Below are positions 7,304 to 52,255 of a stretch of DNA of 64,000 nt, one piece after another (the first letter of the stretch is position 1; each line of letters opens with the position of its first letter). This DNA is from Rhizobium sp. 007 (GTDB taxonomy: Bacteria > Pseudomonadota > Alphaproteobacteria > Rhizobiales > Rhizobiaceae), in the NCBI RefSeq assembly GCF_015353075.1, contig NZ_CP064187.1:2542001-2606000 (forward strand). The letters are read 5' to 3'. A program made the position numbers and the translations under genes. The notes under the pieces were generated by a model. The model saw only the letters and a list, made by a program, of their open reading frames with translations, made no database searches and had not been told where the DNA came from.

Positions 7304-8230
7304 CTAAACCCCGAACGACTTCCTGTAGGCACTCGGGCTTGTCCCGAGCCGCTTGCGGAAATGATGCCGCATCGTCGCCAGTGTGCCGAAGCCGCTGGCG
7401 GCGGCGATATCGTCAAGCGATGCGGCGAGTTCCTTTTCCAGGAGATTGCGGGCGTGGCGAAGCCGCTCTTTGAGCAGCCATTCGCCCACGCTGAGGCCCG
7501 TCGTCGTTTCGAAGCGGCGCTGGAAGGTGCGCAGGCTCATGCCCGCCTTTTGCGCCAGCAGGCTGATCGACTGCTCCTCGTCCAGCCGCTCCCGCATCCA
7601 TTGGAGCAGCGGCCCGAGCCGTATTCCCTCCCGCTCTTCGAGCGCGGGCGCGCTGATGAATTGCGCCTGCCCGCCTTCGCGATGCGGCGGAAGCACCAGA
7701 CGGCGCGCCACACTGTTTGCGGCTTCTGCGCCAAAATCACCGCGCACGACGTGCAGGCAGAGATCAATGCCGGCCGCACTGCCCGCGGCCGTCAGGATAC
7801 TGCCCTCGTCCATGTAGAGAACGTTCGCATCGAAGGCGATCTGCGGATAGCGCGCTGCGAGCGACGCGACATAGCGCCAATGCGTCGTGGCACGCCGGCC
7901 GCTCAAAAGACCGGAAGCGGCAAGCACGGCAACTCCGGAGCAGAGCGACATGATACGGGCACCGCGCTCATGAGCCTGACGCAGCGCATCAATCAGCGGC
8001 TCCGGCACCGGCGCATCGATCGACCGCCAGCCCGGCACGACGATGAGATCGGCTTCGGCCAGAACCTCCAGGCCCCGATCGACCGAAACGCTCAATCCGC
8101 CCGCAGCACGGAGCGGCCCCGGTTCGACGCCGCAGACCGAATAATGATACCAGCCCTCGCCCATTTCGGGACGTGGAAGACCGAAGACTTCGTAAGCAAT
8201 ACCGAATTCGAAAGTGCATAGCCCGTCATA
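7304..8230 (-). pseudogene. GlxA-type AraC-family regulator, 3' part of a split gene
   Basis: Codons 16-322 of a regulator with an N-terminal DJ-1/PfpI-like domain and a C-terminal AraC helix-turn-helix (SLLAQKAGMSLRTFQRRFE; SLDDIAAASGFGTLATMRHHFRK). The frame runs cleanly through DGLCTFEFGIAYEVFGLP to the transposon edge at 8231 and then becomes unrelated. The missing first codons, MPNSPRRPHVVVLAYD, are at 52251-52297. Joined across the 5-bp duplication they give a continuous protein of about 322 residues, normal for this family. Re-initiation at the internal ATG at 8164 would give only part of the ligand domain. Its targets are unknown, though it sits beside preTA. Confidence 0.9.
8226..8230. 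repeat. Left target-site duplication of the Tn7-like element
   Basis: TCATA, repeated exactly at 52251-52255. The bases on either side of the two copies differ, so the repeat is exactly 5 bp, the length made by Tn7-like transposases. Confidence 0.9.
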
Positions 8231-8343
8231 TATCGGTACCGGCCGAAACCGTTCTACTACACAGTTGATTTTGCTTCACCGACGAATGAAGAATCGATTC
8301 TATCGCCTAGGGTTAAACTGATTCTACCAGCGCCCGGGATCAT
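8231..8343. repeat. Left end of the Tn7-like transposon
   Basis: The terminal 12 bp is followed by candidate transposase sites of the form ACCG(G)-NCGAA-N7-ATTC/GTTC: one at 8238-8256 and one at 8277-8296. A shorter GATTCTA(T/C)C motif recurs at 8296 and 8320, and a related GTTCTACTAC at 8251. Spaced left-end sites are characteristic of Tn7-like elements. The tniQ stop codon is 114 bases from the tip. Confidence 0.7.
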
Positions 8344-9699
8344 CTAAGCCCGGCAAGCCAAGCGTTCTCCGAAATGCCCTTCAACGACTTGCCGTTCATA
8401 AATCATTGCCGTGCCTCGCCCAACACCTTGGTAGACTTTCAATTCTCCGGCGAACTTTTTATGGTGTTTTAACAAGTGCCCATTCATCGCAGCGCGACGC
8501 GTAATTTCGGGCGCCATGATGAACATCTCATGAAACAACCACAAATTCTTCATACTGAGGTCTCGCTGAAGTAGATAGGTATTGTGCAACCTCACCAGGG
8601 CGCTGTAGCCCAAACCCATAACCACGCACGCAGTGCGATTTTCTACAGGGAGGTCATCTAAATGTCCTGCGACCTCGGCGACTTCGAGTATTGACCGTAG
8701 CTTATCAAAATCTCGCACGCGCAAGCGTGTCATGAGTGGGCCTTTTTCTTGCGCGTGCCAAAACTCCAAAGAGCCTTGCAACATAGCGTCCAAGGTCACC
8801 ACGAAGGGGTTGATCCTTCGACCGGATAGAGCAGTCAGAGCAGCGCCCAATGGCAGCGTTAGCGAGGGCATTTCTCGATGCGATGCACGTAATAGAATGC
8901 GTTTTTCGAAAGGCACTTCAGGGGGTCTGTGGCTGCGCCCAAGATAAGGATCGATGGCATGATCTAAAACCTCAATGAAGTTCCCCGCAAAGAAGTCGAC
9001 GAGAAAAGGAAGCGGAATACCGGAATGCTTAGCGAATGACCGAGTTGTCTTCGAACTTGAAAGCATCACGTATCTAGCATCCGGAAGTTTAACGTAAGCA
9101 TCTTCCTGGCGGCTCAAAACGGTAACGCCATTGGCGCGCCTTAATCCGTTAGTGCCGCCTGAACGAAAGATTGGGGAAGTTGAAAGCTTGAAGTGCGTGC
9201 CGGCGTAATCGGACTGCGCTGTTATTGAGGCAAGCGATCTGAAGGCCAGACGCCGCCGCTCTTCATGAGATTTGGAAAGTAGTAGCCTTTGAAAGTCTCT
9301 ATCAAGCAGAGACACGACTTCACGTATAGGCGGATGTACGCGGGCGTTTTGTTTTTCGCCGGTTGTTGCGGACTTGGTTCTCTGGTCGTTGAGCATTCTT
9401 TCATGGAGCAGATTAAGCCCCTCCGGCCAAGACATCACCGCCCGCGTTGCCTTCGCCATATCGTCAGGGAATGGCGTCCGGTACTGTAGCAAGAGGTCGC
9501 GACTAGCTGATCCTTGCTCCCGGTAGCGGCTCAATAACCGCGCTATGTTGCTTATCAGTTCAAAGACAGCGCCCGGGCCGAAGGCTCGAATTGCATCGGG
9601 TACCTTCGAGAGGTCTAACACAGCAACCCTTACAGCCGGATCGATGAGCGCAATACAAAATCGCAAGGCTTCCTCGTCATCAACCTCAACAGAAGGCTG
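8344..9699 (-). pseudogene. tniQ: TniQ, C-terminal part, cut by IS66
   Basis: Codons 96-543 of the transposon's TniQ protein. The native frame begins at QPSVEVDDEEALRF; residues before that in the open frame come from the inserted IS. Removing the IS and one copy of its 8-bp duplication joins this part in frame to the N-terminal part at 12517-12800 (DFPQPS|VEVDD), restoring about 543 residues. TniQ proteins link the target site to TnsC. I see no clear zinc-finger Cys/His cluster in this half. The stop lies next to the transposon's left end. Confidence 0.75.
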
Positions 9700-9721
9700 G
9701 TATCCCCACGGTGACGGCCGC
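9692..9721. repeat. IS66 left inverted repeat and 8-bp target duplication
   Basis: GAAGGCTG (9692-9699) is the duplication. The IS begins at 9700 with GTATCCCCACGGTGACGGCC. The right end read inward begins GTACCCGTCCGGTGAAGGCC; over 22 bases the two agree at 17. Confidence 0.9.
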
Positions 9722-9777
9722 CTTGCTGAAGAGGGCTGAAGACTGCAAGTCCTAGTGCAAGCACTAGGGATAGTCTT

Positions 9778-10170
9778 ATGACAAAGCAGCTTGTTGAGGT
9801 TATCACATCGGTCGAGCGACGTCGGCGCTGGTCTCGGGAGGATAAAGAGCGGCTGGTCGCGGCAACGTTTGAGCCAGGAGCCAGCGTGTCGGAGATCGCG
9901 CGATCTGCTGGTATCCATTCCGGCCAGTTGTTCCGCTGGCGAAAGGAACTGTGCCAGGTATCGGCGCCCTCAATCTCACGGTTTATCCCTGTCGAAGTTG
10001 TCGCGAGCTTGCCAGCGCCTGATGCGGTGGAAACGGCCCCGCCTGCACGGTCGCGCAAGAAGACGAGCATCGTGACGATCGAGCTTGGCCGCAGCCGGCG
10101 CCTTCGCGTCGAGAGTGACATTGACACCGAAGCCCTGGTTCGGATCCTCGATATCCTGGAGCGGCGATGA
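9778..10170 (+). CDS. tnpA: IS66 TnpA, helix-turn-helix protein
   Basis: 130 residues, the usual size for IS66 OrfA. The N-terminal helix-turn-helix is clear (RRRWSREDKERLVAATFEPG, then VSEIARSAGIHSGQLFRWRKEL). The C-terminal half is conserved in this family. The frame overlaps tnpB by four bases (ATGA), suggesting coupled translation. Confidence 0.93.
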   Translation: MTKQLVEVITSVERRRRWSREDKERLVAATFEPGASVSEIARSAGIHSGQLFRWRKELCQVSAPSISRFIPVEVVASLPAPDAVETAPPARSRKKTSIVTIELGRSRRLRVESDIDTEALVRILDILERR

Positions 10171-10514
10171 TCCCGGTTCCGAGCGGCGTGAAGGTCTGGC
10201 TGGCAACAGGTTACACGGACATGCGAAAGGGTTTTCCCGGCCTTGCCCTGATGGTGCAGGAGACGTTGAAGCGCGATCCTCACAGCGGCCATTTGTTCTG
10301 CTTCCGCGGACGTCAGGGTGGATTGATCAAGGTGATCTGGCATGATGGCCAGGGTGCCTGCCTGTTCACCAAGAAGCTGGAACGGGGTCGCTTCTTATGG
10401 CCGTCGGCGGCCGATGGCACGCTGGTGATTACGCCGGCGCAGCTCGGTTATTTGCTCGAAGGCATCGATTGGCGGATGCCGCAAAAAACCTGGCGGCCGA
10501 CGTCGGCTGGATGA
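10167..10514 (+). CDS. tnpB: IS66 TnpB accessory protein
   Basis: 115 residues with the family signature near the N-terminus (TDMRKGFPGLALMVQETL) and FCFRGRQGGLIKVIWHDGQG after it. TnpB is required for IS66 transposition though its role is poorly defined. It overlaps tnpA and is followed after 45 bases by tnpC. Confidence 0.95.
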   Translation: MIPVPSGVKVWLATGYTDMRKGFPGLALMVQETLKRDPHSGHLFCFRGRQGGLIKVIWHDGQGACLFTKKLERGRFLWPSAADGTLVITPAQLGYLLEGIDWRMPQKTWRPTSAG

Positions 10515-10559
10515 GCAAAACCGCTGGCATGACGGGAGCGAATATGATTCCATCTCGTC

Positions 10560-12197
10560 ATGACCGACGCGGCCGATCAGCTTCCCGACGACCTTGCCAG
10601 CGCTCACGCGATGATCCTCGCGGAACGTGCCGCCCGTCGTGAAGCCGAGGCCGTTGCTGCTCGTGCGCAAGCTGTGAACTCGCATTCCGATGCGCTGATC
10701 GCCCGGCTGAGACTGGAGATCGAGAAGCTCAAGCGCGACATCCATGGCAGCCGCTCGGAGCGGAAGGCCCGGCTTCTCGAACAGATGGAATTGCAGCTCG
10801 AAGAGCTGGAAGCCGACGCCAGCCAAGACGAACTGGCGGCAGAGATGGCGGCACGATCATCGACAGTCAGGGCCTTCGAGCGCAAGCGTCCATCGCGCAA
10901 ACCGTTTCCCGAGCATCTGCCGCGCGAGCGCGTCGTCATTGCCGCGCCGACAAATTGCCCGTGCTGTGGCTCGGCCAGGCTGGCGAAACTGGGCGAGGAC
11001 ATCACTGAGACGCTGGAGGTAATCCCGCGCCAGTGGAAGGTGATCCAGACGGTGCGCGAGAAATTCTCCTGCCGCGAATGCGAGAAGATTACTCAGCCGC
11101 CTGCGCCCTTCCATGTGACGTCGCGTGGCTTTGCCGGGCCAAACCTGCTGGCGATGATCCTGTTTGAGAAGTTCGGTCAGCATCAGCCGCTGAACCGGCA
11201 AAGTGAGCGCTATGCCCGCGAGGGCATCGATCTCAGCCTGTCGACGCTTGCCGACCAGGTTGGCGCTTGCGCCGCGGTCTTGAAGCCAGTGCATGGATTG
11301 ATCGAGGCACATGTGCTGGCTGCCGAGCGGCTGCACGGCGATGACACCACGGTGCCGATCCTGGCGACGGGAAAGACCGAAACTGGCCGCATATGGACCT
11401 ATGTCAGGGATGACCGGCCGTTCGGCGGAACATCGCCACCGGCAGCCCTCTACTATGCCTCGCGAGATCGTCGCCAGGAGCATCCCGAGAGGCATCTCAA
11501 GACCTTCACCGGCATTCTGCAGGCAGACGCATACGGCGGCTACAATCCCCTGTTCAAAGTGGATCGCAATCCAGGTCCGCTGACGCAGGCGCTGTGTTGG
11601 GCGCATGCCCGTCGCAAGTTTTTTGTGCTTGCCGACATTGCCACTAATGCGAAACGGGGAAAGAACGCAGCAACGATCTCGCCGGCTGCGCTCGAAGCGG
11701 TCAGCCGCATCGACATGCTGTTCGACATCGAGCGCGAGATCAATGGCTTATCTGCCGGTGAACGACTGGCACGACGGCAACAAGACAGTCGTCCTCTCGT
11801 CGACGAGCTTGAGGAATGGCTTCGTTCTGAACGAACAAAGCTGTCGCGCAGCTCACCGGTCACCGAGCCCATCGATTACATGCTGAAGCGTTGGGAGGGC
11901 TTCACGTCCTTCCTCAACGACGGCCGCATCTGCCTCAGCAACAATGCTGCTGAGCGGGCCCTGCGTGGCTTTGCTCTCGGCAGAAAAGCGTGGCTCTTTG
12001 CAGGCTCTGACCGGGGTGCGGATCGCGCCGCCTTCATGGCGACGCTGATCATGACAGCCAAGCTCAACGACATTGATCCGCAAGCTTGGCTCGCCGACGT
12101 GCTCGCCCGCATCGCCGACACCCCCATCACTAAGTTGGAGCAACTGCTCCCTTGGAATTGGTCGGCCGTGGGGGCGATTGCCGAAAAGGCGGCGTGA
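10560..12197 (+). CDS. tnpC: IS66 TnpC, DDE transposase
   Basis: A full-length 545-residue transposase. The N-terminus is a Glu/Lys-rich coiled coil (about 35-95). A zinc-binding stretch follows (CPCCGSARL and FSCRECEKI, about 135-180). The catalytic DDE domain begins with LHGDDTTVPIL, continues with LQADAYGGYNPLF, and ends in the NNAAERALRGFALGRK block with the catalytic Glu. No frameshift or internal stop is seen. Confidence 0.95.
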   Translation: MTDAADQLPDDLASAHAMILAERAARREAEAVAARAQAVNSHSDALIARLRLEIEKLKRDIHGSRSERKARLLEQMELQLEELEADASQDELAAEMAARSSTVRAFERKRPSRKPFPEHLPRERVVIAAPTNCPCCGSARLAKLGEDITETLEVIPRQWKVIQTVREKFSCRECEKITQPPAPFHVTSRGFAGPNLLAMILFEKFGQHQPLNRQSERYAREGIDLSLSTLADQVGACAAVLKPVHGLIEAHVLAAERLHGDDTTVPILATGKTETGRIWTYVRDDRPFGGTSPPAALYYASRDRRQEHPERHLKTFTGILQADAYGGYNPLFKVDRNPGPLTQALCWAHARRKFFVLADIATNAKRGKNAATISPAALEAVSRIDMLFDIEREINGLSAGERLARRQQDSRPLVDELEEWLRSERTKLSRSSPVTEPIDYMLKRWEGFTSFLNDGRICLSNNAAERALRGFALGRKAWLFAGSDRGADRAAFMATLIMTAKLNDIDPQAWLADVLARIADTPITKLEQLLPWNWSAVGAIAEKAA

Positions 12198-12216
12198 TCA
12201 AAGGACTGGATCGGCG

Positions 12217-12489
12217 ATGGGATACCGCAACACCACGCTCTACACCCTTAAATATGTGGCTGAGATGCTCGACGAGGACGAGGACTTTCTCCACGATTGC
12301 TCTATCGAGATGTTCTCAGAAGATGGACGCTTGAGTGCCTACGACACCTATCCGGCATCTGAACTGAGCGAAACCATCGTCGTCTTCACTGAAGACGGAA
12401 TCGATAATCTTCAGCACATCGTCAATGTACGTAGAGAAATGGGTGACGCTCCACCCAAGCCTGCCGCTATCAAACCGCCGGAGCCGTAG
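12217..12489 (+). CDS. IS66 fourth small protein
   Basis: A 90-residue acidic protein that starts 20 bases after tnpC and ends just inside the right inverted repeat. Small proteins of this type accompany tnpC in several rhizobial IS66 elements. Function is unknown, and no catalytic motif is visible. Confidence 0.65.
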   Translation: MGYRNTTLYTLKYVAEMLDEDEDFLHDCSIEMFSEDGRLSAYDTYPASELSETIVVFTEDGIDNLQHIVNVRREMGDAPPKPAAIKPPEP

Positions 12490-12494
12490 CTGCT

Positions 12495-12524
12495 GCGGCC
12501 TTCACCGGACGGGTACGAAGGCTG
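12495..12524. repeat. IS66 right inverted repeat and 8-bp target duplication
   Basis: The right inverted repeat occupies 12495-12516. GAAGGCTG at 12517-12524 is identical to 9692-9699. Confidence 0.9.
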
Positions 12525-12800
12525 CGGGAAATCTCTGAGATCAACTATGCGGCCGCCATTGTAGCAGATGAGGAAAGCGATCCGCTGCGGGTCAATCGCT
12601 TTGCCGGCGAGTGCCAAATGCGTGAGCTTCTGCCCACTCAAGCCCGCCAGAGCCATCACCACCGAGGTCCTAACATAGCCGTTCTCGGCAGAAGCTCGAA
12701 ACAGAAGGTCAGCAAGCCCCTCTCCTGGCATTAACCTGACGGGATACGATAGTTCGCCCGCGTCGTAATCAGCGGCGTTTTTCTTCACTCCGCTTGGCAT
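12517..12800 (-). pseudogene. tniQ: TniQ, N-terminal part, cut by IS66
   Basis: Codons 1-95 of TniQ. The family's opening motif is visible (LMPGEGLADLLFRASAENGY, near residue 23). It starts 17 bases after the tnsC stop and is broken by the IS66 element after DFPQPS. The rest is at 8344-9691. As it stands the fragment runs into IS sequence and stops. Confidence 0.75.
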
Positions 12801-12817: not shown

Positions 12818-13816
12818 TCAGTGTTTTTTTAGCGGCATCGTTGACCTGGGTCCTTCTCTGAAAGGATTGTAATCGATGTATTTTTTGCGAATCGCGAACA
12901 TATCAGTAGCCCTCTCGAGGTGTGTACGTTCGACGCGCATAGCGCCTTCCTCGAAAGCGATCTCGGCCGCCTTCCACAGAAGGCGCACCATCGATCCGAG
13001 TAGCCCTTTTCCCGCCAGAAAAAAGCACTGCAAAGTGTCGCCACTCAGGAAATCACTCCACTCGCGCATAATTCCTTTTTCCTTCAAGATGATCCCCAGA
13101 TCGGCTGCAAAGTCCATGAGCAGCTTGAAGTCCTTCTCGTTGGCATAATCGAGCGCATCTGGACTGATCGGGTATAAATCCCGCTCCAGCATTTGATCTT
13201 CACTGAAAAGCTTACCGTGTGCTTCAGGAATCCCGACGAACATGATTGGGTATCCCGCTATCAACAGGCTCTTTAGGTGGTTGTGCACCGAGGTGGCTTC
13301 ATCACGCTTTGTGGTGCTTCGTGGAGGTGGAACCCGGAGGTGATCGACTTCATCGATAATAAGTAACTCCACCTTATGTTGCCGCATTAACTTTTCCGCA
13401 CTGTATATCTGCGCATCTACATTTGGCCCTGAGTCGGGCCGAGGGTCTCCAAGAGCGCTAAGCAGCTTTTGCATAAGGCCCTTCATTCTGGTATTCGACG
13501 GAAGGCTCACGTGGAGCACCAACCTCTGCCTATCCATTACTCGTTCGCGCGGCGTACTTCGGGTAAACAGTCCGCGCTCGTAACACTCGTTTACGACCTG
13601 CCGCTCAAGGTACATTCGAATGATGGTAGATTTTCCATAGCCACTATCGGCGAAGTAAGTTCCAGCGACCATCTCGTTTCTACCGGGCGTAAGTCGCCTT
13701 CCTTCCCGCATGGCGTCGAAAGTTTCATAAACTAAATCCGCGCGCGGGTGGTCTATGCGCATGGCAAGAAACCGAGCCGCTATTTGCCCTTTTGATCTCA
13801 CCAGATCCATCACCAA
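12818..13816 (-). CDS. tnsC: TnsC/TniB-type AAA+ transposition regulator
   Basis: 332 residues. A Walker A motif (FADSGYGKST, about residue 55), a Walker B motif (ELLIIDEVDHLR, about 150) and a sensor-like GIPEAHGKL region give the AAA+ fold of TnsC-family regulators. These bind target DNA through TniQ and activate the TnsB transposase. The gene lies between tnsB and tniQ in the standard order, 39 bases after the tnsB 3' end. It is the only transposition gene here that looks undamaged. Confidence 0.85.
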   Translation of the reverse strand: MVMDLVRSKGQIAARFLAMRIDHPRADLVYETFDAMREGRRLTPGRNEMVAGTYFADSGYGKSTIIRMYLERQVVNECYERGLFTRSTPRERVMDRQRLVLHVSLPSNTRMKGLMQKLLSALGDPRPDSGPNVDAQIYSAEKLMRQHKVELLIIDEVDHLRVPPPRSTTKRDEATSVHNHLKSLLIAGYPIMFVGIPEAHGKLFSEDQMLERDLYPISPDALDYANEKDFKLLMDFAADLGIILKEKGIMREWSDFLSGDTLQCFFLAGKGLLGSMVRLLWKAAEIAFEEGAMRVERTHLERATDMFAIRKKYIDYNPFREGPRSTMPLKKH

Positions 13817-13855: not shown

Positions 13856-16101
13856 TCAATATTCCACCACCATCGAGGACTGATCCGCCTCCTGAAGGAT
13901 GGAATGTGGCGACAAGTCGTCATTGAAGTGCGGAGTATCTTGAGCCGCTGACGATGCGCGCTCCTCATTGCGAGTTTTTTCAACGGAGCTTTTGGTTGAT
14001 TTCTTTGAGGTGCCGCCGCGCCGCGGCCCGATGGGTGCGGGACCGTGATTTCGGCGCAGCGTCACCGGCGCGGTATTGGGGATGTTAGGTCCGTTCATTC
14101 CAGTAACGGAAGGATCGACCGCAACCTCGACGACTTCGTCGCCAGGAACCAACGTGAGCGCTTCTGCGTGATAGCTACGAAGATCCTTTCGGTTATTCTT
14201 CTTCCTTTCACCCAATTTCTCTTCCAGGTGTTCCAGCATCTTCCAGCGCGCCTGAGCCCGCTCTATGTCGGAGTGGAATGCAAGGTCCTCTTCTCTCGCA
14301 TAGCGACGAAGCTGCTTTGACATCTCGAACGACAAGCCCTTGGTCGACACGGGGTAGCGATGCCTATCCTCATCAGTTGTCCGGTCCCCTCATTGAGGAC
14401 GTTCAAGAAGGAGCAATCGAGCGGATCGCGAAAGGTGTTCACCCTTAGAACGATCGACTGTCCGGGCGCGCGCTGCTCGCGCTTTTTCGCGAACCGCGCC
14501 ATATCCCGTATCAGTATCGAAGTGACGGCTTGCTCATGGTACTCCTCTCCCATCAATTTAATGCCACTTGTGGTCAGAACTGCGCGGCCGTATTGGCCAA
14601 TCTTCCGGTCGAGGACGTTCACGTCGTCAACCGTGTTCCTTCCATACTCGACAATACCGTTCGCCCATTTCCTTGCAGGTGCTTTGCCGCCTTTCGGGCG
14701 CTCCACGTGGTATGAGCACACTATAAATTCGCTGAGTTTGCGCATTGCCTGCGGAAGAGTGTACTCGGCATCTTCGCGAACATCGTGGTCAGGCATCTTA
14801 CGCTTGTCTAAACCACCTGGCCGTCCTCCCGGTAACTGATGCCACAGACCATTGGTGGTGCCGAAAATGCGTTCCACCCTCGTTTTGTGCTCTGGCGTTC
14901 GCAGAGCAGCGTATTCGATATCGATGCCTACGCCCTCCATGACGGTCTGCAAGGAAACACCGATGTTTTCGAGTCCATTGTCCAAAATAAGGACGGCCGG
15001 CTTTCCCCAGCCGTCGGTCGCACCCTTGTATAGCCCAAAGCGCTCCTCGAGTTCCGCCTTCGGCCGCAAGACGTGCCTTATGCACTTCATCAAGCTGTAG
15101 ACCGAGGGTGGTTCGAATGTCAGGAAGAAGCCGAGAACCATTCCGGAATAAACATCGAGCGCGTAAACCAAGTAGGCTCGCATCGTGCCGACGACGACGC
15201 CTTTGCTATTAGTCACCTGCAGCGATAGGTCGACTTGCGTTTGATCGAGGACGACATATTCAAGAGGCTTTGAGGCCTTTATGCTGTCCACGGTGCCGAC
15301 ATGCCGTTTATGGGCATTCCGGCTGCCATATTTTTTAGCGTACCGGTCTTGGGTTTCAGACTCCCGCATCCATCCGTTAAGGGTTTCTGGGGCGGGTGGC
15401 TTGATTAGAGTAAGACCTCTTCTCTTCCGTTCTTCCTCAAACTTCGTGATGTAGAAATTGCGAGCGGTATCGACTGTGACCGAGCGTGCCGACCAATACA
15501 GCTCGATCATCTTTGACTTCAGTTCGTCCATCCAGTCTGGCCAACGGCTAACCCGATGCTTTCCTGAAGTGGCCAGGATCTGTCCGAGGGTCCGATTTCC
15601 GGGCTCACCAAAGTAATTCAAAAAGATGCGAAACTGGCTCTCAGAAATTCTCCATTCGAACCGATACTCATCCCATGCCCGCCTTGCAGTTTGATCCAGA
15701 AACCGACCGAGCTTTGGTCCGTAGGTTGTTACATCGGGCGCCGCATCGTACTGTTTAAGAAAGTAGAGAATAGTGCGCGCTCGCACTATTTTCTTGGCCG
15801 CTGCAAGACGCCTTTGGCGCTCCTTCTTGCCGATTTCTTTGTCATCCGCGTCGAGCAAATGATAGGAGCCGAGTGCATCTGTGTACGTCGGAACGCCTTT
15901 GCGAACCGTTCTAATCGCAACACCCAATCCACGCATGATTGTAAATGACGCATAGGAAACGACCCGTTCCTTGCCCGTTTCACGATCGCGTAGAACAATC
16001 GACCCATCGCCATTCGTTCGAACAAACTTGAAATGGCCCGCCAAGTCCGGGTCTGAGATGCTGTATTCATCTCCTTCGTTTGCGTCGACAATTTTTGCCA
16101 T
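13856..16101 (-). pseudogene. tnsB: TnsB/TniA-type DDE transposase, frameshifted
   Basis: The first frame gives about 583 good residues. They include the catalytic triad: Asp in YVVLDQTQVDLSL, Asp in AVLILDNGLENIG, and Glu in HKTRVERIFGT. At a run of four C (minus strand; 14351-14354) the frame is lost. The adjacent frame continues naturally (GIATP, then VSTKGLSFEMSKQLRRYARE) for 164 residues. Together about 747 residues are restored, normal for TnsB. The lost tail is where TnsB contacts TnsC. The second frame has a GTG that could start a separate product. A one-base deletion or a sequencing error are both possible. Confidence 0.8.
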
Positions 16102-16259
16102 CAGGTACGGCCTATCTCGAATGCGGGGACGTTGGGGTTGGGGGTCAAGGGCGACAGATCGACATTGATCATCCGAGCCGCGAAAACGGGTCGAGCCAGT
16201 GTTGCGGCACCGATCCGGAGGTCACAGCTTTTCCTTACTCTCGCGAGCTTTGGCATCAT
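16101..16259 (-). CDS. Possible 52-residue protein between tnsA and tnsB
   Basis: An open frame that starts at ATG 16259, overlapping the tnsA stop (TGATG), and ends with TGA overlapping the tnsB start (TGATG). Start and stop are thus both set for translational coupling. The product is basic at the N-terminus (MMPKLARVRKS) and has no recognisable domain. The tight overlaps are the only evidence that it is real. Confidence 0.35.
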   Translation of the reverse strand: MMPKLARVRKSCDLRIGAATLARPVFAARMINVDLSPLTPNPNVPAFEIGRT

Positions 16260-16752
16260 CACCGTCCCGGGAAGTTGATCAGGCTGTCATCCCCGAGTTC
16301 ATCGCGGAGATCGATTGAAAGAACCCGACGGACTTGGAACGCGGCGACTTTTGCAAAGCCTACCGGACCGCCCCCCAAAGCCTGGACGACTTCGGCATAC
16401 GTAAGTCGCATCTGCCTGCGCAGATAAATCGAACGCAGAACGTCGAAATCCCGCAGCGTGACCGTTGTGTGCCGAGCATCAGTAATTCTCTTCAGACGGA
16501 TGTGTAGCTCACTTGGGATTTCATCACTGCGGACCGTCAGAAAAGGCTGTCCAAGACGCGCGTAGATTTGGCCAGCCAGATCGAGCTTGGTCAGATACCA
16601 GGGGTCATCAAGACGCGGGTCGTTATCGCGCTTCACTTCGATCACTATCCTGCGGCACCTCGACCGTGGAGTTATGGTCGTCCTCGGTTTCAACGCCAGT
16701 TCCCAGAGCGGGGCACCGCGGCGCAGTTCCGCCCTGAGTTCATCGTCCACCC
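16259..16752 (-). pseudogene. tnsA: TnsA-like endonuclease, N-terminus lost
   Basis: The retained part begins near RGAPLWELAL and contains RIVIEVKRDNDP, matching the E-V-K active-site strand of TnsA-type endonucleases. The rest of the domain (KLDLAGQIYARLGQPFLTVRSDEI) and a helical C-terminal domain follow. The earlier acidic catalytic residues are absent because the sequence changes at about 16753 into a truncated histidine kinase gene on the other strand. TnsA cuts the 5' ends of the element so that it moves by cut-and-paste. The open frame continues into the junction but is not native there. Confidence 0.6.
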
Positions 16753-17721
16753 ACCTCGCAGCTTCTGGCGTTCGGAAGGCGGCAAGCTCTCGCACCGAAG
16801 GTGCTGGACGTCGGCGCCCTCCTTGGAGAATTTTCAGACCTCGTCCAGCGAACGCTCGGCGACTCCGTCGAGTTCCGGACGATCATTCCTGGACGGCGGC
16901 TGAGCGCAATGGCAGACAAGGCGCAGCTCCAAAGCGCGCTTCTCAACCTTTCGATCAACGCTAGGGACGCGATGCCTGCCGGGGGCCGTCTGACGATCGA
17001 GATATCCGGCGTCGAGATCGACTCCGACTACGTCGGGATGTACCCGGCGATCCGCCCCGGCAGATACGTCCTCATTTCGGTCACCGATACCGGCACCGGA
17101 ATGACATCCGAGGTGATGGAGAGGGCTTTCGAACCGTTCTTCACCACCAAACCGACGGGCTCGGGAACGGGGCTTGGACTCAGCATGGTCTACGGTTTCG
17201 CAAAGCAATCCGCAGGGCACCTGCAGCTCTACAGCGAACCTGGCGAGGGGACGACGGTGCGCCTCTTTCTTCCACGCGCCGACGCCGGAAAGGATTCCCA
17301 TCCGGACGAGCAGCAGGCCAAGGACGCCCCGTCTCGCGGAACCGAAACCATTCTCGTGGTCGAAGACGACGCGAGAGTTCGCCGAGTGACGGTCAGCCGT
17401 CTGCAGACGCTTGGCTACTTCGTGATCGAAGCTACGAACGGGATCGACGCGTTGAAGGAGCTGGAGGCGGGGCATGACGTTGCGCTCCTGTTCAGTGATG
17501 TGGCTATGCCGGGAATGAACGGCGACGAACTGGCCCGGAAGGTCCGCGAGCGCTGGCCGAGGGTGAAAATTCTCCTCACGTCGGGCTTTTCGGAGCCCCA
17601 TGCTGCGGAGAAGGAGATCGAAGCAGGCGCCGGCTGGCTAAAGAAGCCGTACACGGCGTCGGAGATGTCGACCCGCCTCAGGCTGTTGCTCGACGCGAGA
17701 CATGGTGGCGATCCTGCGTGA
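16753..17721 (+). pseudogene. Hybrid histidine kinase, 5'-truncated
   Basis: The native frame starts at TSQLLAFGRRQALAPKVLDV, the end of a dimerisation helix. The sensor and phospho-acceptor His are gone. An ATPase domain follows (NLSINARDAMPAGG; VTDTGTGM; GSGTGLGLSMVYGF), then a receiver domain with phospho-acceptor Asp in LLFSDVAMPGMNG and Lys in LKKPYT. Upstream the frame hits a stop at 16735 inside the tnsA remnant. A GTG at 16801 could restart translation but would give a kinase without its His. It cannot autophosphorylate as a normal kinase. Confidence 0.8.
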
Positions 17722-33051: not shown

Positions 33052-33317
33052 GAGATCCTCCATTGGTTGGAAGAGAAAGAACGCGTGGGATTCTAAAAAG
33101 ATGCGTGAGCAGCGTGAACGTGGATTGGACCACCCGTCGCGGCCGGGAAACTTCCCGCAGAACAGGACCGGAAACCCGCCACCGCAACTCTGAAAGGAAA
33201 TTGAATCGAACTCGGAAGAAGATTCCATAAGTCATTGAAAAATGATTCGCTTTGAGTCGGAACGAATCACCTTCGCACGTCTTTGAGTCGCGACTTAGTG
33301 ATTCGGAGGATGCGTCC

Positions 33318-34235: not shown

Positions 34236-34250
34236 CAGGAGACCGTGACT

Positions 34251-40922: not shown

Positions 40923-40926
40923 AGAG

Positions 40927-41679: not shown

Positions 41680-41697
41680 TTCCTCAGGGGATTTGAA

Positions 41698-41868
41698 ATG
41701 GATCTTACCCACGAAACCATGTTGGAACTGTCCAAGGTTTGGGGCCTGTTCTATCTCATTCTGTTTTCGATCGGGGTGATCATCTACACCTTCTGGCCTT
41801 CCAACAAGGCGCGTTTCGATCGGGCGGAAACGGACATATTCGATAAGGACGACACCCCATGGCGATAG
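41698..41868 (+). CDS. ccoQ: cbb3-type oxidase small subunit CcoQ
   Basis: A 56-residue protein after TCAGGGGATTTGAA. One membrane helix (VWGLFYLILFSIGVIIYTFW) is followed by a charged tail NKARFDRAETDIFDKDDTPWR, the standard CcoQ form. The 3' end overlaps the start of ccoP by ten bases. CcoQ stabilises the oxidase complex. Confidence 0.93.
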   Translation: MDLTHETMLELSKVWGLFYLILFSIGVIIYTFWPSNKARFDRAETDIFDKDDTPWR

Positions 41869-42737
41869 AGGAAGTCGATCCCGTAACAGGCCGGAAGACG
41901 ACGGGACACATTTGGAACGGTATCAAGGAACTCGATACTCCTGTACCGCGCGGGGTTCTGCTCTTCCTGATCATCACGCACCTGTTCGCCGCTCTCTGGT
42001 GGATACTGTATCCGACCTGGCCGCTTGGAAGCACGTATACGAGGGGCCTGATCGGCACGGGTCAAAAGCAGGCGGTAGAGCGAAAGATCATAGAAGCCGA
42101 TGCTTCGCGCGCGCTCTGGATCGAGAAGATCGAGACCAGTTCCTTTGATGAAATCCGTGCAGACGAAAAGCTGATGGAGAAGGTGGCCTCCAGCGGCCAC
42201 CAGTTGTTCGGAGATAACTGCGCCGCCTGTCATGGAAGGGACGGCAAGGGCGGACGAGACTTCCCCGATCTTACCGATGACGACTGGCTTTGGGGTGGAG
42301 GACCAGAAAAGATCGTCCAGACCATGACGGTGGGAGTCAATACGACGCACTCGCAAAGCCGCGTGTCGCAGATGCCTGCGTTCGGAACAGACGAAATGCT
42401 CAACCGAAAACAGGTGAGCGACGTCGCCGCCTATGTCTATTCGTTGAGCAATTCGTCCGCCGAAGCAGTAGACGCCAGCCAGATAGCTGCTGGCCGTCAG
42501 GTGTTCATGGCTAGCTGCGTGGCATGCCACGGCGAAGATGCCAAAGGCAAACAGGATGTCGGTGCGCCGAACTTGACTGATGGCCGCTGGATTTACGGCG
42601 GGGGTATCGAACGGATCGTCCAGTCGATCCATGGCGGACGGCAGGGACATATGCCGACCTGGGACGAACGCCTAAGTCTAGCTGAGATAAAGATACTCGC
42701 GCTTTATGTGAATAAGCTGGGTGGGGGTCAGCCGTGA
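41859..42737 (+). CDS. ccoP: cbb3-type oxidase dihaem subunit III
   Basis: 292 residues. An N-terminal membrane helix is near 30-50 (VLLFLIITHLFAALWWILYP). Two periplasmic cytochrome c domains follow, with haem sites CAACHGRDGKGG (about 124) and CVACHGEDAKGK (about 222), and axial Met in SQMPAFG and GHMPTW. It receives electrons from soluble cytochrome c. Start and stop overlap both neighbours. Confidence 0.96.
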   Translation: MAIEEVDPVTGRKTTGHIWNGIKELDTPVPRGVLLFLIITHLFAALWWILYPTWPLGSTYTRGLIGTGQKQAVERKIIEADASRALWIEKIETSSFDEIRADEKLMEKVASSGHQLFGDNCAACHGRDGKGGRDFPDLTDDDWLWGGGPEKIVQTMTVGVNTTHSQSRVSQMPAFGTDEMLNRKQVSDVAAYVYSLSNSSAEAVDASQIAAGRQVFMASCVACHGEDAKGKQDVGAPNLTDGRWIYGGGIERIVQSIHGGRQGHMPTWDERLSLAEIKILALYVNKLGGGQP

Positions 42738-43766: not shown

Positions 43767-46031
43767 ATGACCTGCTGCGCGTCAATTGCGTCGTCGCTCC
43801 ACGAGCCCGGACCAAGAAGGCCGGGTGTGGATGAGGTTGCGTTGGCAAGCAGGGATTTGGGCAATGGTCTCAGGCAGATCACCTTGTCAGTTCCGGACAT
43901 GCGATGCGGCGCATGCATGGCGCTTTTGGAATCGACCCTTGGCAAGCACCCCGAAGTTCACATGGCGCGCGCCAATCTGACGGCAAAGCGCGTAACCATC
44001 CATTGGCACGCGGAAAATGGTTCGCCTCCCGATTTTGCCGCCCTGATCGGAACGATCGGTTACACGGCCGTCTTGCCGGCGGAAGGCCGCGATCAACCGG
44101 ACGGTGAGATATCAGGCCTGTTGCGCGCGCTGGCAGTCGCCGGCTTTTGCTCGATGAACATCATGGTGCTGTCCGTATCGGTCTGGGCGGGCGCGGACCC
44201 GGCAACACGTCAGACGCTCCACCTGATGTCGGCTGCGCTCGCACTACCGGCCGTGATCTACTCCGGGGCGACATTCTACCGGTCGGCGTGGCGGGCGCTC
44301 GTGCACGGTCGGGCAAACATGGATGTGCCGGTCAGCATCGGGGTCCTGCTCTCGTTCGGTCTCAGCGTATACGACACGTTCGCCGAAGGACGGCAAGCCT
44401 ACTTCGAGGCCAGTACCTCGTTGATCTTCATTTTGCTCGTCGGACGCACGCTGGACCATCTGATGCGACGGCGGGCGCGATCGGCAGCGGCATCTCTGGC
44501 CGACATGATGCCGAAAGGCGCGAATGTGATCCGCGCGGATGGACGGATCGAATATGTTCCACTGAGCGACATCGTTTCCGGCACCCGCACCCTGATTGCA
44601 GCCGGCGATAGAATTCCGGCCGACGGGACGATTCTCTCCGGCCTGTCGGAACTTGACCGTTCATTGCTGACGGGAGAGAGCCGTTGGGAGACGGTTGGAC
44701 CAGGCGGACAGGTTCGCGCGGGAGATTTGAACGTCGGCCATCCCCTGACTGTCGAAGCCGCCGCCGCACCGGGAGATTCGACAGTCGCCGAGCTGCATAG
44801 GATGCTGGAAGCCGTCGAGGACGGCCGGTCCCAATACCGGATACTCGCCGACAGGGCCGCGCGTCTTTATGCTCCCGTTATCCACGGACTGTCGGTGCTG
44901 ACATTCCTTTCGTGGTTTGCGGTGATACGGGACATCCACCTCTCCCTGACGATCTCGATTTCGGTCTTGATCATCGCGTGCCCTTGTGCGCTGGGGCTGG
45001 CGGTTCCGATGGTTCAGGTCGTTGCAGCACGCAGATTGTTCACCCAGGGCATCGTGGCACGGGACGGATCGGCATTGGAACGTTTGGCGGAAATCGACAC
45101 CGTCGTTTTCGACAAGACCGGTACGCTGACGCAATACGAGCCGACGCTGTTGACCGGGAACTGGACCGGTCCATTGGAATTTTCATTGGCTGCATCGCTG
45201 TCACGGTTTTCGAGCCATCCGATGTCGAGAGCGATCGCGGATTACGCCTCACGGCGCGAGTGGGAGGCGCTCGCGCTCGATGACGTCAGGGAGATACCCG
45301 GCAACGGTCTCGAGGCGTCTTTCCGAGGGGAGGTTTATCGACTTGGGCGAGCGGCATGGGCGGCGAGCGGCGATGCAGACCGGACTGCCGCAGCTTCTAC
45401 TGTCGTCCTGACGCGACAGGGAGAAATCCTCGCCTCTTTCTTTTTTGGAGAGAAGGTTCGAGCCGGGTCGGCGATGGCCGTCCAGTTCTTGAAGAGCCGC
45501 GGCATCGCCGTCGAAATGCTGACGGGCGATGTCCCCGAAGCGGCTCTTGCAGTGGCACGGGAAATCGGAATCGACTCCGTAAAAGCAGCCGCCCTCCCCA
45601 AGGATAAGGCCGAGGCGATCGATGCGCTGCGCAGTCTCGGACGCAAGGTGATGATGATTGGTGACGGAATAAACGACGCGGTCGCGCTGAAGACCGCGCA
45701 TGTTTCCATGGCTCCGGCGTCAGGAAGCGACATCGGTCGCAGCGCCGCAGATTTCATCCTGCTCAATGGAGACATGGACGGAATAAAGGTCGCGCTGACG
45801 ACGGCGGGTCGTGCGGCCGTGCTGATCCGCCAAAATTTCGCTTTGGCTATCGTCTACAATGCGTGCAGCATTCCTCTCGCGCTGTTGGGTTATGCCAATC
45901 CGCTCATCGCCGCGATAGCGATGTCGACGTCGTCGATATTGGTCGTCGCGAATGCGATGAGGCTTGAGATTGACGGCACGCCACCAGAGCGCGAAATGCG
46001 GCGGATAAATAAGCTGGCGGGAGTGGGATAA
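43767..46031 (+). CDS. ccoI: Copper-transporting P1B-ATPase for cbb3 assembly
   Basis: 754 residues. The N-terminus holds MTCCAS and a heavy-metal-associated domain with MRCGACM (about residue 48). The metal path CPCALGL, phosphorylation site DKTGTLTQ and hinge GDGINDAVALK are all intact, and the nucleotide His is in SSHPMSRAI. CcoI/FixI exports copper to the periplasmic side for the CuB centre of CcoN. It overlaps ccoS, whose ATG follows its stop directly. Confidence 0.95.
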   Translation: MTCCASIASSLHEPGPRRPGVDEVALASRDLGNGLRQITLSVPDMRCGACMALLESTLGKHPEVHMARANLTAKRVTIHWHAENGSPPDFAALIGTIGYTAVLPAEGRDQPDGEISGLLRALAVAGFCSMNIMVLSVSVWAGADPATRQTLHLMSAALALPAVIYSGATFYRSAWRALVHGRANMDVPVSIGVLLSFGLSVYDTFAEGRQAYFEASTSLIFILLVGRTLDHLMRRRARSAAASLADMMPKGANVIRADGRIEYVPLSDIVSGTRTLIAAGDRIPADGTILSGLSELDRSLLTGESRWETVGPGGQVRAGDLNVGHPLTVEAAAAPGDSTVAELHRMLEAVEDGRSQYRILADRAARLYAPVIHGLSVLTFLSWFAVIRDIHLSLTISISVLIIACPCALGLAVPMVQVVAARRLFTQGIVARDGSALERLAEIDTVVFDKTGTLTQYEPTLLTGNWTGPLEFSLAASLSRFSSHPMSRAIADYASRREWEALALDDVREIPGNGLEASFRGEVYRLGRAAWAASGDADRTAAASTVVLTRQGEILASFFFGEKVRAGSAMAVQFLKSRGIAVEMLTGDVPEAALAVAREIGIDSVKAAALPKDKAEAIDALRSLGRKVMMIGDGINDAVALKTAHVSMAPASGSDIGRSAADFILLNGDMDGIKVALTTAGRAAVLIRQNFALAIVYNACSIPLALLGYANPLIAAIAMSTSSILVVANAMRLEIDGTPPEREMRRINKLAGVG

Positions 46032-46802: not shown

Positions 46803-46828
46803 CCGTTATGCCGGACGCGGCATAACGG
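46803..46828. repeat. Perfect 11-bp palindrome beside copy B
   Basis: CCGTTATGCCG and CGGCATAACGG surround a GACG centre. It shares the TTATGCCG core with the 85-bp repeats and touches the start of the truncated dinB. Confidence 0.8.
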
Positions 46829-46842
46829 AATGAATATGTGCC

Positions 46843-47534
46843 GCCGCGCGAGGATCAAGGCGGCGACGGGGCTCAACGCGTCGGCGGGAATCTCGTACAA
46901 TAAGTTCCTGGCCAAGATGGCCAGCGACCTCAACAAGCCGAACGGCCAAGCCGTCATCACCCCGAAGAACGGCCCCGCCTTCGTCGAACAGCTTCCCGTC
47001 AAGAAATTCCATGGCGTGGGACCGGCAACGGCCGAGAAGATGCATCGGCTCGGGATCGAAACGGGCGCGGACCTGAAGGAGAAAACGCTCGACTTCCTCG
47101 TCGAACATTTCGGGAAGTCAGGACCGTATTTCTATGGGATTGCTCGCGGGATCGACAATCGCCAGGTCAAGCCTGACCGGGTGCGGAAATCCATCGGAGC
47201 GGAAGACACGTTTTCGCAGGACATCCATTCCTATGAACCTGCGCGCGCAGGGCTTCAGCCGCTAATCGAAAAAGTCTGGAGCTACTGCGAGGCCAATGAG
47301 ATCGGCGCCAAGACGGTGACCCTCAAGGTCAAATATGCCGACTTCAGCCAGATCACCCGCAGCAAGACCGTTCCCGCACCTCTGCCGGCGATCGGCGAAC
47401 TTGAAGACGTGGTCGATATGCTTCTCGCGTCAATCTTCCCGCCGCGAAAAGGCAAACGCCTGCTTGGCGTGTCGCTGTCTTCGCTGGAACGGCGGAGATC
47501 TGAAGCGACGCCGCAGTTGCGGATGGCGCTTTAG
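46843..47534 (+). pseudogene. dinB: DNA polymerase IV (DinB), N-terminal part lost
   Basis: The frame is family-like from ARIKAATGLNASAGIS onward, through the helix-hairpin-helix (KFHGVGPATAEKMHRLGIE) and the little-finger domain to the end. The first ~110-120 residues, with the metal-binding Asp residues and the SIDE active-site motif, are absent. The visible ATG at 46830 starts in the neighbouring repeat. Without the catalytic residues it cannot polymerise DNA. The 250 bases that follow, to 47784, hold nothing recognised. Confidence 0.85.
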
Positions 47535-48756: not shown

Positions 48757-48843
48757 TGACGAACGCAATGGCTTTCCTAGTGACCGCTTCTGGCGCGAAG
48801 CGCCTCTTGTAGGTTTGGGGGATTCATCGGCGAATCCCGCGCC

Positions 48844-49356: not shown

Positions 49357-49497
49357 CGACTTCAAAATATCAATACAGAACAGCAGGTTGGCGACAATGG
49401 AATCACTCCTTGGTCAAAACTGTTGACATCGATGCATATCAGAACATCCAGGTGACAGAAGTCGCCAATCTGAAAAATTGCAGGTGGGAGAACGACG

Positions 49498-49953: not shown

Positions 49954-50050
49954 CTGCCTTCCAGCGTGAACCCGACCTGGGTTGACAAACGTCACCGACG
50001 GCAAGGATTCTGGCGCTCGCAACTGACGTGCCGGAGGAGGTTCGGGCGAG

Positions 50051-50668
50051 ATGTGCAACTTGTACCGCATGGATGACAAAGACTGGATTCGGAAGTGGGC
50101 GATCGATGCCGAGAGCATGATCAACTTGATGCCCAGTTATCAAATGAACCCTGACCAGATGGGGCCGATCGTCCGCAACACTGCCGACGGCAGCAAGCGG
50201 CTCGTCCATGCCCGCTGGGGTCTGCCATCTCCGACGCGCGTCCAAGAGGAAGCTGCCAAAGGCCGTGCCGCGAAACTCGCGGCCAAGGGGAAGTCTTTCG
50301 ATATGGACGAACTCCTGCGGATGGAGCCTGATCGCGGCGTGACGAATGTCCGGAAGCTCAATCTCAAGCATTGGAGGCAATGGTTTGGCGTCGAGCATAG
50401 ATGCATCGTTCCGGTGACAACTTTCGCTGAACCCGATCCCGACAGTCAGGAGCCGGGAGGGAAAGTCCGGAATGCCTGGTTCGGGCGAGACGAAAGCAAA
50501 GAGCTTATGTTCTTCGCCGGGATCCACGTGCCGCAGTGGACAAGCGTACGGAAGGTGAAGGACGGGCGGACGACAGACGATCTATACGGTTTCCTCACGA
50601 CGAACCCAAACGACATCGTGAAGCCCATTCACTGGAAGGCGATGCCCGTCCTGCTGCTGACGAAGTAG
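50051..50668 (+). pseudogene. SRAP-family DNA-protein crosslink sensor, premature stop
   Basis: The protein starts MCNLYRM, with the catalytic Cys2 that bonds to abasic sites in single-stranded DNA after Met removal. It continues through ARWGLPSP and RCIVPVTTFAEPD to KPIHWKAMPVLLLTK. A TAG follows at 50666-50668, yet the same frame goes on ETDVWMNAPWEVE, which is the normal next family motif. One base change (CAG to TAG) explains it. Soon after, at about 50705, the sequence runs into the inverted ABC-3C gene. The core active site remains, so the truncated protein might still work. Confidence 0.8.
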
Positions 50669-50705
50669 GAGACGGATGTCTGGATGAATGCGCCCTGGGA
50701 GGTCG

Positions 50706-51124
50706 AACGTTCTTGCAAGCCATTGCGACCGTGCGCGCAGCGCTTCCGCATAAGGGGACGTCAGCAGGCGGACAAACGCCGTCGTCAGCTCCGATCCGAC
50801 GAAATAAATGCCGCTCCCAGTTAGCTTTTTCTCGACGAGGTCGCGCGCGAACATCAGGCCTAGTCCCATATTGATTACATCCCGCTTCACCACCCATTCG
50901 GAACCGCGGTTCGGGACGGCGGGATGAAGGCTGTGGAATTCGCTGGAGACGTCACCGGAATGTACGAGCAGGTAGTCGTAGCTGATCAACCGCTGCAGGT
51001 CGCATGGTTCCGGACGGCATTCGGAGAGAATGAACAAGAGCCTAAAACCGGCTTCGAGCGGCGTGTTGAAGAGTCGAACCGGCGGCCTCGGTTGTAGGGG
51101 CGTCCGACCTGCATTCTCAATCAT
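50706..51124 (-). pseudogene. ABC-3C system middle component, 3'-truncated
   Basis: About 140 native residues (LFNTPLEAGFRLLFILSE; DLQRLISYDYLLVHSGDV; LHPAVPNRGSEWVVKRDVINMGLGLM) match the small middle component of ABC three-component defence systems. The frame leaves the family after SQWLARTFD near 50706, where it meets the SRAP gene tail to tail. The ATG overlaps the stop of the upstream effector gene. The third component, a P-loop ATPase normally next in line, is missing. Confidence 0.65.
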
Positions 51125-52094
51125 GATCGCACCACGTCAGGCTCTCGTCGTTTGCGAGATGATGGCAGATCCCCTCCCTGTCGAAGGCCGTCAGATGCGG
51201 TCCTAGGACATGGCCGTCGACCTGCTGCACCTGTGCGGCCTGCACCGTGCTCCTGATCCGTTCGTGGCCGCTCGCTGCCGGAGCCGTATAGGTGTAGTAC
51301 AGGCCGGTTCGAAACTGGCCCAGCAAGTCGTCGAAGAATTCGACCTGATCCATCTGGTCGCGAGCAAGCTCCTTGAGTCCTTCGGCGCTGTAGAAGCTCG
51401 CACGGGAGCGTTCGAAGAGATGCGCAGGCTTCTGCTGTCCCTTGAAGTCGGATTCCTGCTGGATCGGCGAGCCCGTCATTTCTTCAATGACCTCGAATAA
51501 CTGTCGGACATAGCTTCGCTCTTTCTCCGCAATCGACGACGGCGGCGCCGATGGCTTCGGCCGCTCGATCAGCGGCTTTCCGAACACGACCAGATGGTAA
51601 GCAGTCTGACCGTGCTCCTTAATGAGCTCAAGGTGCTGTTTCGCCCGAACGATAGGAAACTCCGGTCCGTTGATGAGAGCCAGAAGACTGTCGTCGAGCG
51701 GAACTTTGTGCTTCGTGGTGATCGTCGTTTCGCAGTTTTTCACCCACGTCTCGACCAACGTTTTCTTGAGCTTCTCCGGATCGTCGAGCAGGTCCTGCAA
51801 CCCGTTCGTGACGCCTTTCCGGGTTACGAACCAGTATTCTCTGGGCAGGGTGAAGTCGCCTTGCGAGGCGAAGTAGAGCACTTTGCCGATCTCCGCTAGG
51901 GCCGACGCCTCGCCTAGGGCACTGCTATACCGCTTGCACTGGTAGAGGTGCCAGTAACGGTCCGAAGCGCCCGGCTCGCCAAACCAGACGACAATGTCGC
52001 GCCCTTTGTCGCCGGCTCCGCCGCGCTGCTGAAGCTCGCTCACGCCAAGGACCTTCTCCGCTGCGTCAGCAGCAACGTTGTAGGCATCTGACCC
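51117..52094 (-). pseudogene. ABC-3C system effector component, 5'-truncated
   Basis: About 325 residues. The N-terminal part resembles a restriction-endonuclease fold (GAGDKGRDIVVWFG, then YWHLYQCKRY: the D, then Q-x-K motif). The C-terminal half (about 210-308) is the ABC-3C-type partner domain. The frame is open upstream of the GTG at 52043 (DAYNVAADAAEKVLGV) to a stop near 52095, without a start codon, so the beginning is lost. The gene ends about 150 bases inside the transposon right end. Confidence 0.65.
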
Positions 52095-52139
52095 GCGAAT
52101 TCACAAAAATTGGCCAGAACCGGTCAAAGCACTGGAATA

Positions 52140-52250
52140 CCTGAATTTTCGAATAATTTGTGCCGGGTAGATTCGATTCTAGGATCGTTTTTCGCCCGGT
52201 TTAGACCTGCTTTTGTCCCGATTTGGAATTGTCTTTGTCCGGTGCCAATA
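52140..52250. repeat. Right end of the Tn7-like transposon
   Basis: Read inward from 52250 the terminal TATTGGCACCGG is followed by a run of related sites about 20-30 bases apart: ACCGGACAAAGACAATTCC, ATCGGGACAAAAGCAGGTC, ACCGGGCGAAAAACGATCC and CCCGGCACAAATTATTCG. Closely packed right-end sites and spaced left-end sites are the Tn7-like pattern. Confidence 0.75.
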
Positions 52251-52255
52251 TCATA
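52251..52255. repeat. Right target-site duplication of the Tn7-like element
   Basis: TCATA, identical to 8226-8230. Confidence 0.9.

Follow-up and report, generated by a model that had tools for sequence, protein, structure and literature searches.

A stretch of 64,000 nt from Rhizobium sp. 007 (NZ_CP064187.1, positions 2,542,001–2,606,000; hereafter the window, whose positions serve as coordinates) carries an element of 44,020 bp (8231–52250; C1 2550231–2594250 in its own genome, G000). This element is very probably a Tn7-like transposon of a divergent family found in Rhizobium, Devosia, Aureimonas, Bradyrhizobium and their kin, which entered codon 16 of an ftrA-type regulator gene in a single insertion, at a site exceptional for the family, and which now looks incapable of moving itself and is bounded by TA ends. 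The borders and the interrupted gene are as follows.

8226–8230, no strand: left target-site duplication TCATA (sequence and empty site)
52251–52255, no strand: right target-site duplication TCATA (sequence and empty site)
8231–8330, plus strand: transposon end on the TniQ side; terminus 5'-TATCGGTACCGG; inner repeats resembling AGAATC (read by eye)
52150–52250, minus strand: far transposon end; terminus 5'-TATTGGCACCGG; repeated boxes resembling binding sites (read by eye)
52251–52297, minus strand: 5' end of the ftrA-type regulator gene, codons 1–16 (sequence)
7304–8225, minus strand: remainder of the regulator gene, DJ-1/PfpI domain and AraC helix-turn-helix (NF006902)

An initial annotation, made from the sequence, had reported the TCATA repeats and termini equal at 10 of 12 bases, and both are present as described (TATCGGTACCGG from 8231 on the plus strand, TATTGGCACCGG from 52250 on the minus strand). 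Borders drawn from the repeat and the ends alone were nevertheless rejected, since many such pairs arise by chance: in the window, 220 pairs separated by more than 5 kb share an exact 5-bp repeat and agree at 10 or more of 12 terminal bases, against 116, 116 and 93 in three block shuffles. The genome-wide search for the 12-bp ends that the annotation had proposed was equally uninformative, with 215 occurrences at up to one mismatch in the own genome versus 198 for a reversed control. Such evidence would not have convinced by itself; what decides the matter is the empty site. In genome G384, window positions 1–8230 correspond to L076 1310–9522 (8.2 kb of left flank, 96.9% identity) and the sequence from 52251 onwards to L076 9518–20000 (10.5 kb of right flank, 97.1% identity), and the two matches overlap by exactly 5 bp, TCATA. 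An identical 5-bp overlap was found in a second empty genome, G352 (L033). Reading across the site is uninterrupted in L031 and L033 (GCCCGTCATAGGCAAGC), and in both empty genomes preA and the rhodanese gene flank the unbroken site from opposite sides. These findings confirm that the 44-kb insertion is real.

When the flanks are joined with a single copy of TCATA, they yield an intact regulator of 322 amino acids (aa) beginning MPNSPRRPHVVVLAYD, and codon 16 is the one interrupted, where the DJ-1/PfpI domain starts. The gene matches the NCBIfam model FtrA (NF006902) above its cut-off and is of the GlxA type, in agreement with the annotated 5-bp duplication in codon 16 of a GlxA-type gene. In a search of 100 genus genomes the regulator was present at E≤1e-80 in 90. 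Thirty of these loci were inspected, one being the window's own; the other 29 match the joined first 60 residues starting from residue 1–8, with preA in 16 and the rhodanese gene in 25, although these loci are only about 4 kb long and absence of either gene there is uninformative. No other listed regulator match in the 100 genomes begins at the break, the two other late starts being at residue 30 (G343) and residue 104 (G319), and no near match of the regulator was found in plasmids. The insertion separated preTA, as had been noted, from the side that carries the dihydropyrimidinase gene (60150–61604).

The transposition genes all lie on the minus strand and adjoin the 8231 end; an IS66-family element interrupts one of them.

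8344–9699, minus strand: tniQ, larger C-terminal part (open reading frame (ORF) 8344–9918 runs into IS66; TniQ2-clade grouping)
12517–12800, minus strand: tniQ, N-terminal part (ORF 12411–12800; homology)
12818–13816, minus strand: tnsC, AAA ATPase (Pfam TniB 4.7e-13, AAA_22 4.3e-13)
13856–14350, minus strand: tnsB, C-terminal part in a second frame (homology)
14263–16101, minus strand: tnsB, DDE transposase (frameshift near 14350–14371)
16259–16795, minus strand: tnsA remnant (homology to the genes of relatives)
9700–12516, plus strand: IS66-family element inside tniQ (TnpA 9778–10170, TnpB 10167–10514, TnpC 10560–12197)
9692–9699, no strand: IS66 target duplication GAAGGCTG, left copy, 8 bp
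12517–12524, no strand: IS66 target duplication GAAGGCTG, right copy, 8 bp

Pfam names only TnsC among the transposition proteins and gave no hit for TnsA, TnsB or TniQ. The TnsB protein (612 aa), for which no Pfam family was found at E 0.05 and NCBIfam gave only a weak IS481 match (0.0018, far below cut-off), has as its PDB matches the TnsB proteins of solved CRISPR-associated transposon (CAST) complexes (2.5e-19 and 4.9e-19), and its active-site residues D286, D374 and E410 are invariant in seven aligned sequences. A profile built from ten TniQ2 proteins of the family matched a solved TniQ at 4.2e-5; a single TniQ1 query retrieved nothing from PDB. TnsA was not identified by sequence search alone, and the evidence for it comes from a predicted model of a relative's TnsA (mean predicted local distance difference test score 81), whose three best fold matches are Tn7 TnsA (1t0f, 1f1z), with E values of 6e-5 to 1.2e-4 and low template-modelling scores of 0.33–0.38. 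The window element thus combines TnsA, TnsB, TnsC/TniB, TniQ/TnsD and a 5-bp duplication, all features of Tn7-like elements. The initial annotation's Tn7-like assignment is upheld on all four proteins; it had passed over the missing terminal TG and the damage to three core genes.

That damage affects tnsA, tnsB and tniQ. Homology of the window TnsA begins at residue 101 to 248 of the stop-to-stop frames of its relatives, and the N-terminal half is lost, including the column of the first catalytic Glu, while the ExK motif is kept; the roles of these motifs we take to be those of Tn7. The tnsB gene shifts into a second frame near 14350–14371. A programmed frameshift was considered and set aside, no slippery motif being visible by eye and an indel or an assembly error being simpler. 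The third gene, tniQ, is split by IS66, of which two further identical copies occur elsewhere in the own genome, which argues that this insertion is recent. Since IS66 arrived later, not all genes of the interval came with the first event, contrary to the suggestion that one event had brought in every gene. Because tnsA is truncated, tnsB frameshifted and tniQ split, the element as assembled is probably unable to move itself. Several relatives also seem decayed, with tnsB (G392, L095) or tnsC (G354) interrupted by about 1–3 kb of other DNA.

The window element ends 5'-TA...TA-3' and therefore lacks the canonical TG...CA termini. Among 22 accepted ends of the family, 17 are TG and five are TA, namely the two of the window element, the two of G775 element A and a single one of G303. 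Element A of G775 (R. leguminosarum USDA 2370) measures 66.7 kb, has the termini TATGGACGGAAAAAAAGT and TATGGGCGGAAAAAAAGT and is flanked by the duplication ACTAT; in our reading, moving its border to the nearest TG destroys this duplication. Moreover, two sister elements differ at the same position, where G359 has TGTGGACGG and G303 has TATGGCCGG. A box-pattern scan that allowed any base at position 2 returned 13 candidates, 10 TG and 3 TA; ten of the 13 were already accepted ends, and two were the TA ends of G775 A and G303. A candidate end of G215 at 45705 (TAT) was dropped, as it lies behind TniQ1 and inside the element. A GATTC-like box, with the accepted spellings widened to include those of the window, stands at position 21 in 15 of the 22 ends (among them the window far end, as AATTC, the right end of G775 A and G303), at position 20 in two (the window TniQ side and G384 left) and at position 28 in one; four have none. 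An automatic scan for inverted-repeat clusters in 13 contigs did not single out the ends, even on known elements, and automatic end searches in relatives gave accepted pairs for G775 B, G789, G776 and G384 only. In G775 (L110, L083, L113), a TA-ended and a TG-ended element of different lineages stand end to end, 8 bases apart.

If 1.5–3% of sites had changed in the window lineage, two independent changes at the same end position would have a chance of at most 2e-4 to 9e-4. The TA ends were most likely already present at transposition, because the state is shared with at least one other delimited family member. On balance we favour the view that the family transposase accepts TA...TA, in some lineages as normal ends, and that the dinucleotide switched at least twice within the family. 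Despite its TA ends, we retain the element among Tn7-like transposons, since its perfect duplication and the existence of a second TA element demonstrate that the family is variable in this feature.

A scan of genome contigs recovered 21 loci, 20 of them from Rhizobium, Sinorhizobium, Devosia, Aureimonas, Bradyrhizobium and related records and one a distant match in a Silvanigrella bin. In a family-wide draw, 72 of 297 genomes had a match at E≤0.001, and five besides the own genome reached 1e-70; in an order-wide draw, three of 397 genomes, the own genome included, reached 1e-40. The genus yielded 24 TnsB matches at E≤1e-30 in 22 of 148 genomes, again including the own genome. Plasmids held 3701 records with weak TnsB matches, none covering 80% of TnsB, and no close relative of the element was found in viral contigs. 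In all, 38 contigs with 39 elements were examined, several elements being cut by contig ends. The window TnsB forms a lone deep branch in the TnsB tree. In the TniQ tree (FastTree, midpoint-rooted, no supports shown), in which the window is represented by the C-terminal part of its protein only, a TniQ1-clade protein was present in 22 of the 39 elements, 14 of which also have a TniQ2-clade protein. The window protein, the sole TniQ of its element, joins the TniQ2 clade by a long branch; elements with TniQ2 alone also occur in G779 and G322. The TniQ2 gene ends 44–164 bp from the element end in ten elements, and 113 bp from it in the window.

Both ends and a 5-bp duplication were delimited in G775 element B (ATAGG), G789 (TAGCA), G776 (CAATT), G384 (GTAGT) and G775 element A (ACTAT). 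In G785 the repeat is 6 bp (GCAGCC), with the left end placed at 36724 by homologous flank (L093 with L146–L148), which showed a first candidate for this end (index 9090) to be wrong. For the element of G384 itself an empty site was sought in the window genome, where the right flank proved repetitive.

Within the genus, 19 of the 24 tnsB matches are assigned to a locus that they share, flanked by a LysR gene on one side and a DJ-1/PfpI (GlxA-type) regulator gene on the other. In nine of the 24 the last tniQ is followed, at a distance of up to about 6.2 kb, by the LysR orthologue (G303, G354, G343, G388, G337, G359, G326, G830 and G344; G784, G785 and G789 are presumed equivalent to G337, G326 and G344, respectively). 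Ten were placed by DNA resembling the left flank of G775 element A, 2.8–60 kb upstream of tnsB (G391, G813, G795, the chromosomal element of G312, G390, G392, G384, G794 and both elements of G798, where B is directly beside A), and some of these flank matches reach only about 72% over 200 bp. Four matches lie elsewhere, namely the window element, one on a plasmid-sized contig of G322, one on a second contig of G312 and that of G342, where LysR is about 236 kb away; G307 was placed in neither group. In G311 and G317, where the locus is empty, DNA resembling that flank of G775 A is next to LysR, and the gene at this locus contains a DJ-1/PfpI domain, its best NCBIfam models being GbdR and FtrA, both below cut-off. 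Naming the small gene beside LysR DUF1127 was rejected, Pfam giving nothing. The mapped ends at the shared locus do not fall on one fixed base; a span of about 12 bp takes in those of G784, G785 and G359. Outside the genus draw, the elements of G215 and G269 are situated just upstream of the same LysR, that of G782 lies 16 bp from a tRNA-Met gene, and that of G776 follows the stop codon of a beta-lactamase-family hydrolase gene at a distance of 18 bp.

The window element is not at the regulator–LysR locus, the LysR gene of its own genome being located at C1 1943554–1944492. Within the DNA retrieved for the 38 element contigs, ftrA (E≤1e-30) stands beside the element in the window only; G322 has a 33% ftrA match about 50 kb from its element. 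Because in the genus the family is placed mostly at the regulator–LysR locus and ftrA adjoins an element in the window only, the window site looks like an exception and not a family preference, and the undescribed attachment preference for the regulator gene that the initial annotation had suggested is not borne out. In the own genome, the LysR gene lies 40 kb (C1 1944492–1984480) from where regulator-side DNA, which adjoins it in empty genomes, is weakly matched.

In the history that we propose, a staggered cut at codon 16 of the ftrA-type gene led to a single insertion with a 5-bp duplication, as the empty site shows, probably after the strain had split from G384. By homology, TnsA and TnsB would have cut and joined the ends, TnsC would have served as the ATPase go-between, and the TniQ-type protein would have chosen or tolerated the target; IS66 entered tniQ later. 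Several points weigh against this history or narrow its base. No close relative of the element was found, the best other TnsB identity in the genus being 42% (148 genomes), and its ends therefore cannot be compared with those of a sister copy. An end was mapped for 10 of the 19 shared-locus elements, the remaining nine placements depending on a neighbouring gene or flank, and G785, the only relative compared with a homologous empty flank, gave a 6-bp repeat. Regarding the termini, the first choice of several TG ends was made by eye and in expectation of TG, there is neither an empty site nor a second end for the TA end of G303, and the TniQ-side box of the window is displaced by 1 bp towards the terminus compared with most relatives. 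Finally, with its tnsA truncated, the element may have been moved by the proteins of another element, or tnsA may have broken afterwards.

This last point bears on the possibility that the element was already defective and was mobilized in trans by TnsABC of another family member. The truncated tnsA and the occurrence of family TnsB matches in 22 of 148 genus genomes, its own included, would fit such a course; we consider it unlikely, as the own genome holds no second TnsB match and the ends of the family differ strongly between lineages. Similarly doubtful is the proposal that the element's only TniQ protein, which is TniQ2-like, selects the conserved 5' region of ftrA/GlxA genes as its target, which would make the site its own true attachment site. 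The grouping of the window protein with the TniQ2 clade, the position of its gene close to the element end and a target at the start of the DJ-1/PfpI domain agree with this idea. It nevertheless describes a single case: ftrA is near no other element among the 38 contigs, no other regulator match listed from the genus starts at the break, and the relatives mapped to noncoding sites, or to sites close to the 3' end of a gene or to a tRNA, include G776, G782, G784, G785 and G789.

That both termini were TG at insertion and changed to TA later is very unlikely. Selection on the ends may have ceased once the machinery decayed, but the chance of both changes is at most about 1e-3 at 3% flank divergence, and the distantly related G775 element A has TA at both ends together with a perfect duplication. 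Least credible of all is an island joined by some other recombination next to a chance 5-bp repeat. The repeat and ends, taken alone, are no rarer than chance, which would fit such an origin, but it is refuted by the exact 5-bp overlap in two empty genomes; moreover, the transposase genes adjoin one end and the far-end box lies at the distance usual in the family. Insertion of a Tn7-like transposon that already carried TA ends remains the reading that we prefer.

The rest of the element is cargo, with a defence-related gene pair at its far end.

16801–50668, no strand: cargo region (protein-family scans)
50582–52043, minus strand: Lamassu-type pair LmuC (50582–51124) and LmuA (51117–52043), adjoining the far end

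The cargo includes genes for a sensor kinase/response regulator, BON, a trypsin-like protease, ADH, Usp, P-type ATPases (one of the heavy-metal type, 43767–46031), TauE and EF-hand proteins, two adjacent Ku-domain genes (33252–35063), cbb3-type oxidase subunits (COX1, FixO and FixP, 39279–42737), a truncated Y-family DNA polymerase without most of its N-terminal catalytic part (46830–47534), EamA, SRAP and others. No LmuB was found among the ten proteins scanned, and the pair of LmuA and LmuC is perhaps a truncated defence system. Beyond tniQ1, relatives (L083, L085, L097, L098) encode HamA, an RNase_T exonuclease, ThiF/JAB and DUF6791-ThiF proteins, some of which look like defence cargo.

Judged from its genes and ends, the window element appears to be a new Tn7-like member whose unusual trait, the TA termini, recurs in its family. 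If so, the family would offer naturally varied TnsB/end pairs in which to locate the residues that recognize a dinucleotide thought to be fixed from Mu to Tn7, and the comparison of G303 (TA) with its sister G359 (TG) would make what reads the last two bases directly testable. The TA ends are also a warning for boundary-finding programs that demand TG, and the regulator–LysR locus constitutes a mapped Rhizobium hotspot whose cargo is varied and in part defence-like. Tn7-like elements with TA ends were not found described in the literature searched, which did not include most subscription journals; the same literature contained no relevant report on Tn7-like rhizobial genomic islands and none linking Tn7-like elements with DUF1127.

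Tn7 itself encodes TnsABCD(E) and inserts at attTn7 beside glmS. The window element resembles it in its TnsA-like fold, DDE TnsB, TniB-type TnsC, TniQ/TnsD-type selector and 5-bp duplication, and differs from it in its TA termini, a site inside a coding gene, a disrupted selector and the absence of TnsE among the window ORFs scanned. A survey of 6,549 delimited Tn7-like elements names Rhizobium once in its available text (PMC8649781), and some relatives may already be catalogued in survey supplements. CAST transposases (PseCAST, Tn6677, type V-K) are the closest solved relatives of the window TnsB by sequence, whereas no CRISPR-Cas gene was found among the window ORFs scanned with Pfam; furthermore, the available text of PMC10201428 describes high conservation of the terminal TG across IS3, Tn7, Mu and retrotransposons and a requirement for it in VchCAST. 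Tn7-like elements with two TniQ/TnsD proteins, described in the available text of PMC10293859, in whose main text 'LysR' and 'Rhizobi' are absent, are paralleled by the 14 of 39 family elements with both TniQ1 and TniQ2, whereas in the window a single tniQ, of the TniQ2 type and broken, is present. The same source shows through Tn6022 (TnsF), which resides in comM, that Tn7-like insertion in a conserved protein-coding gene was already known; the window element shares this kind of site with Tn6022 and differs from it in the gene targeted.

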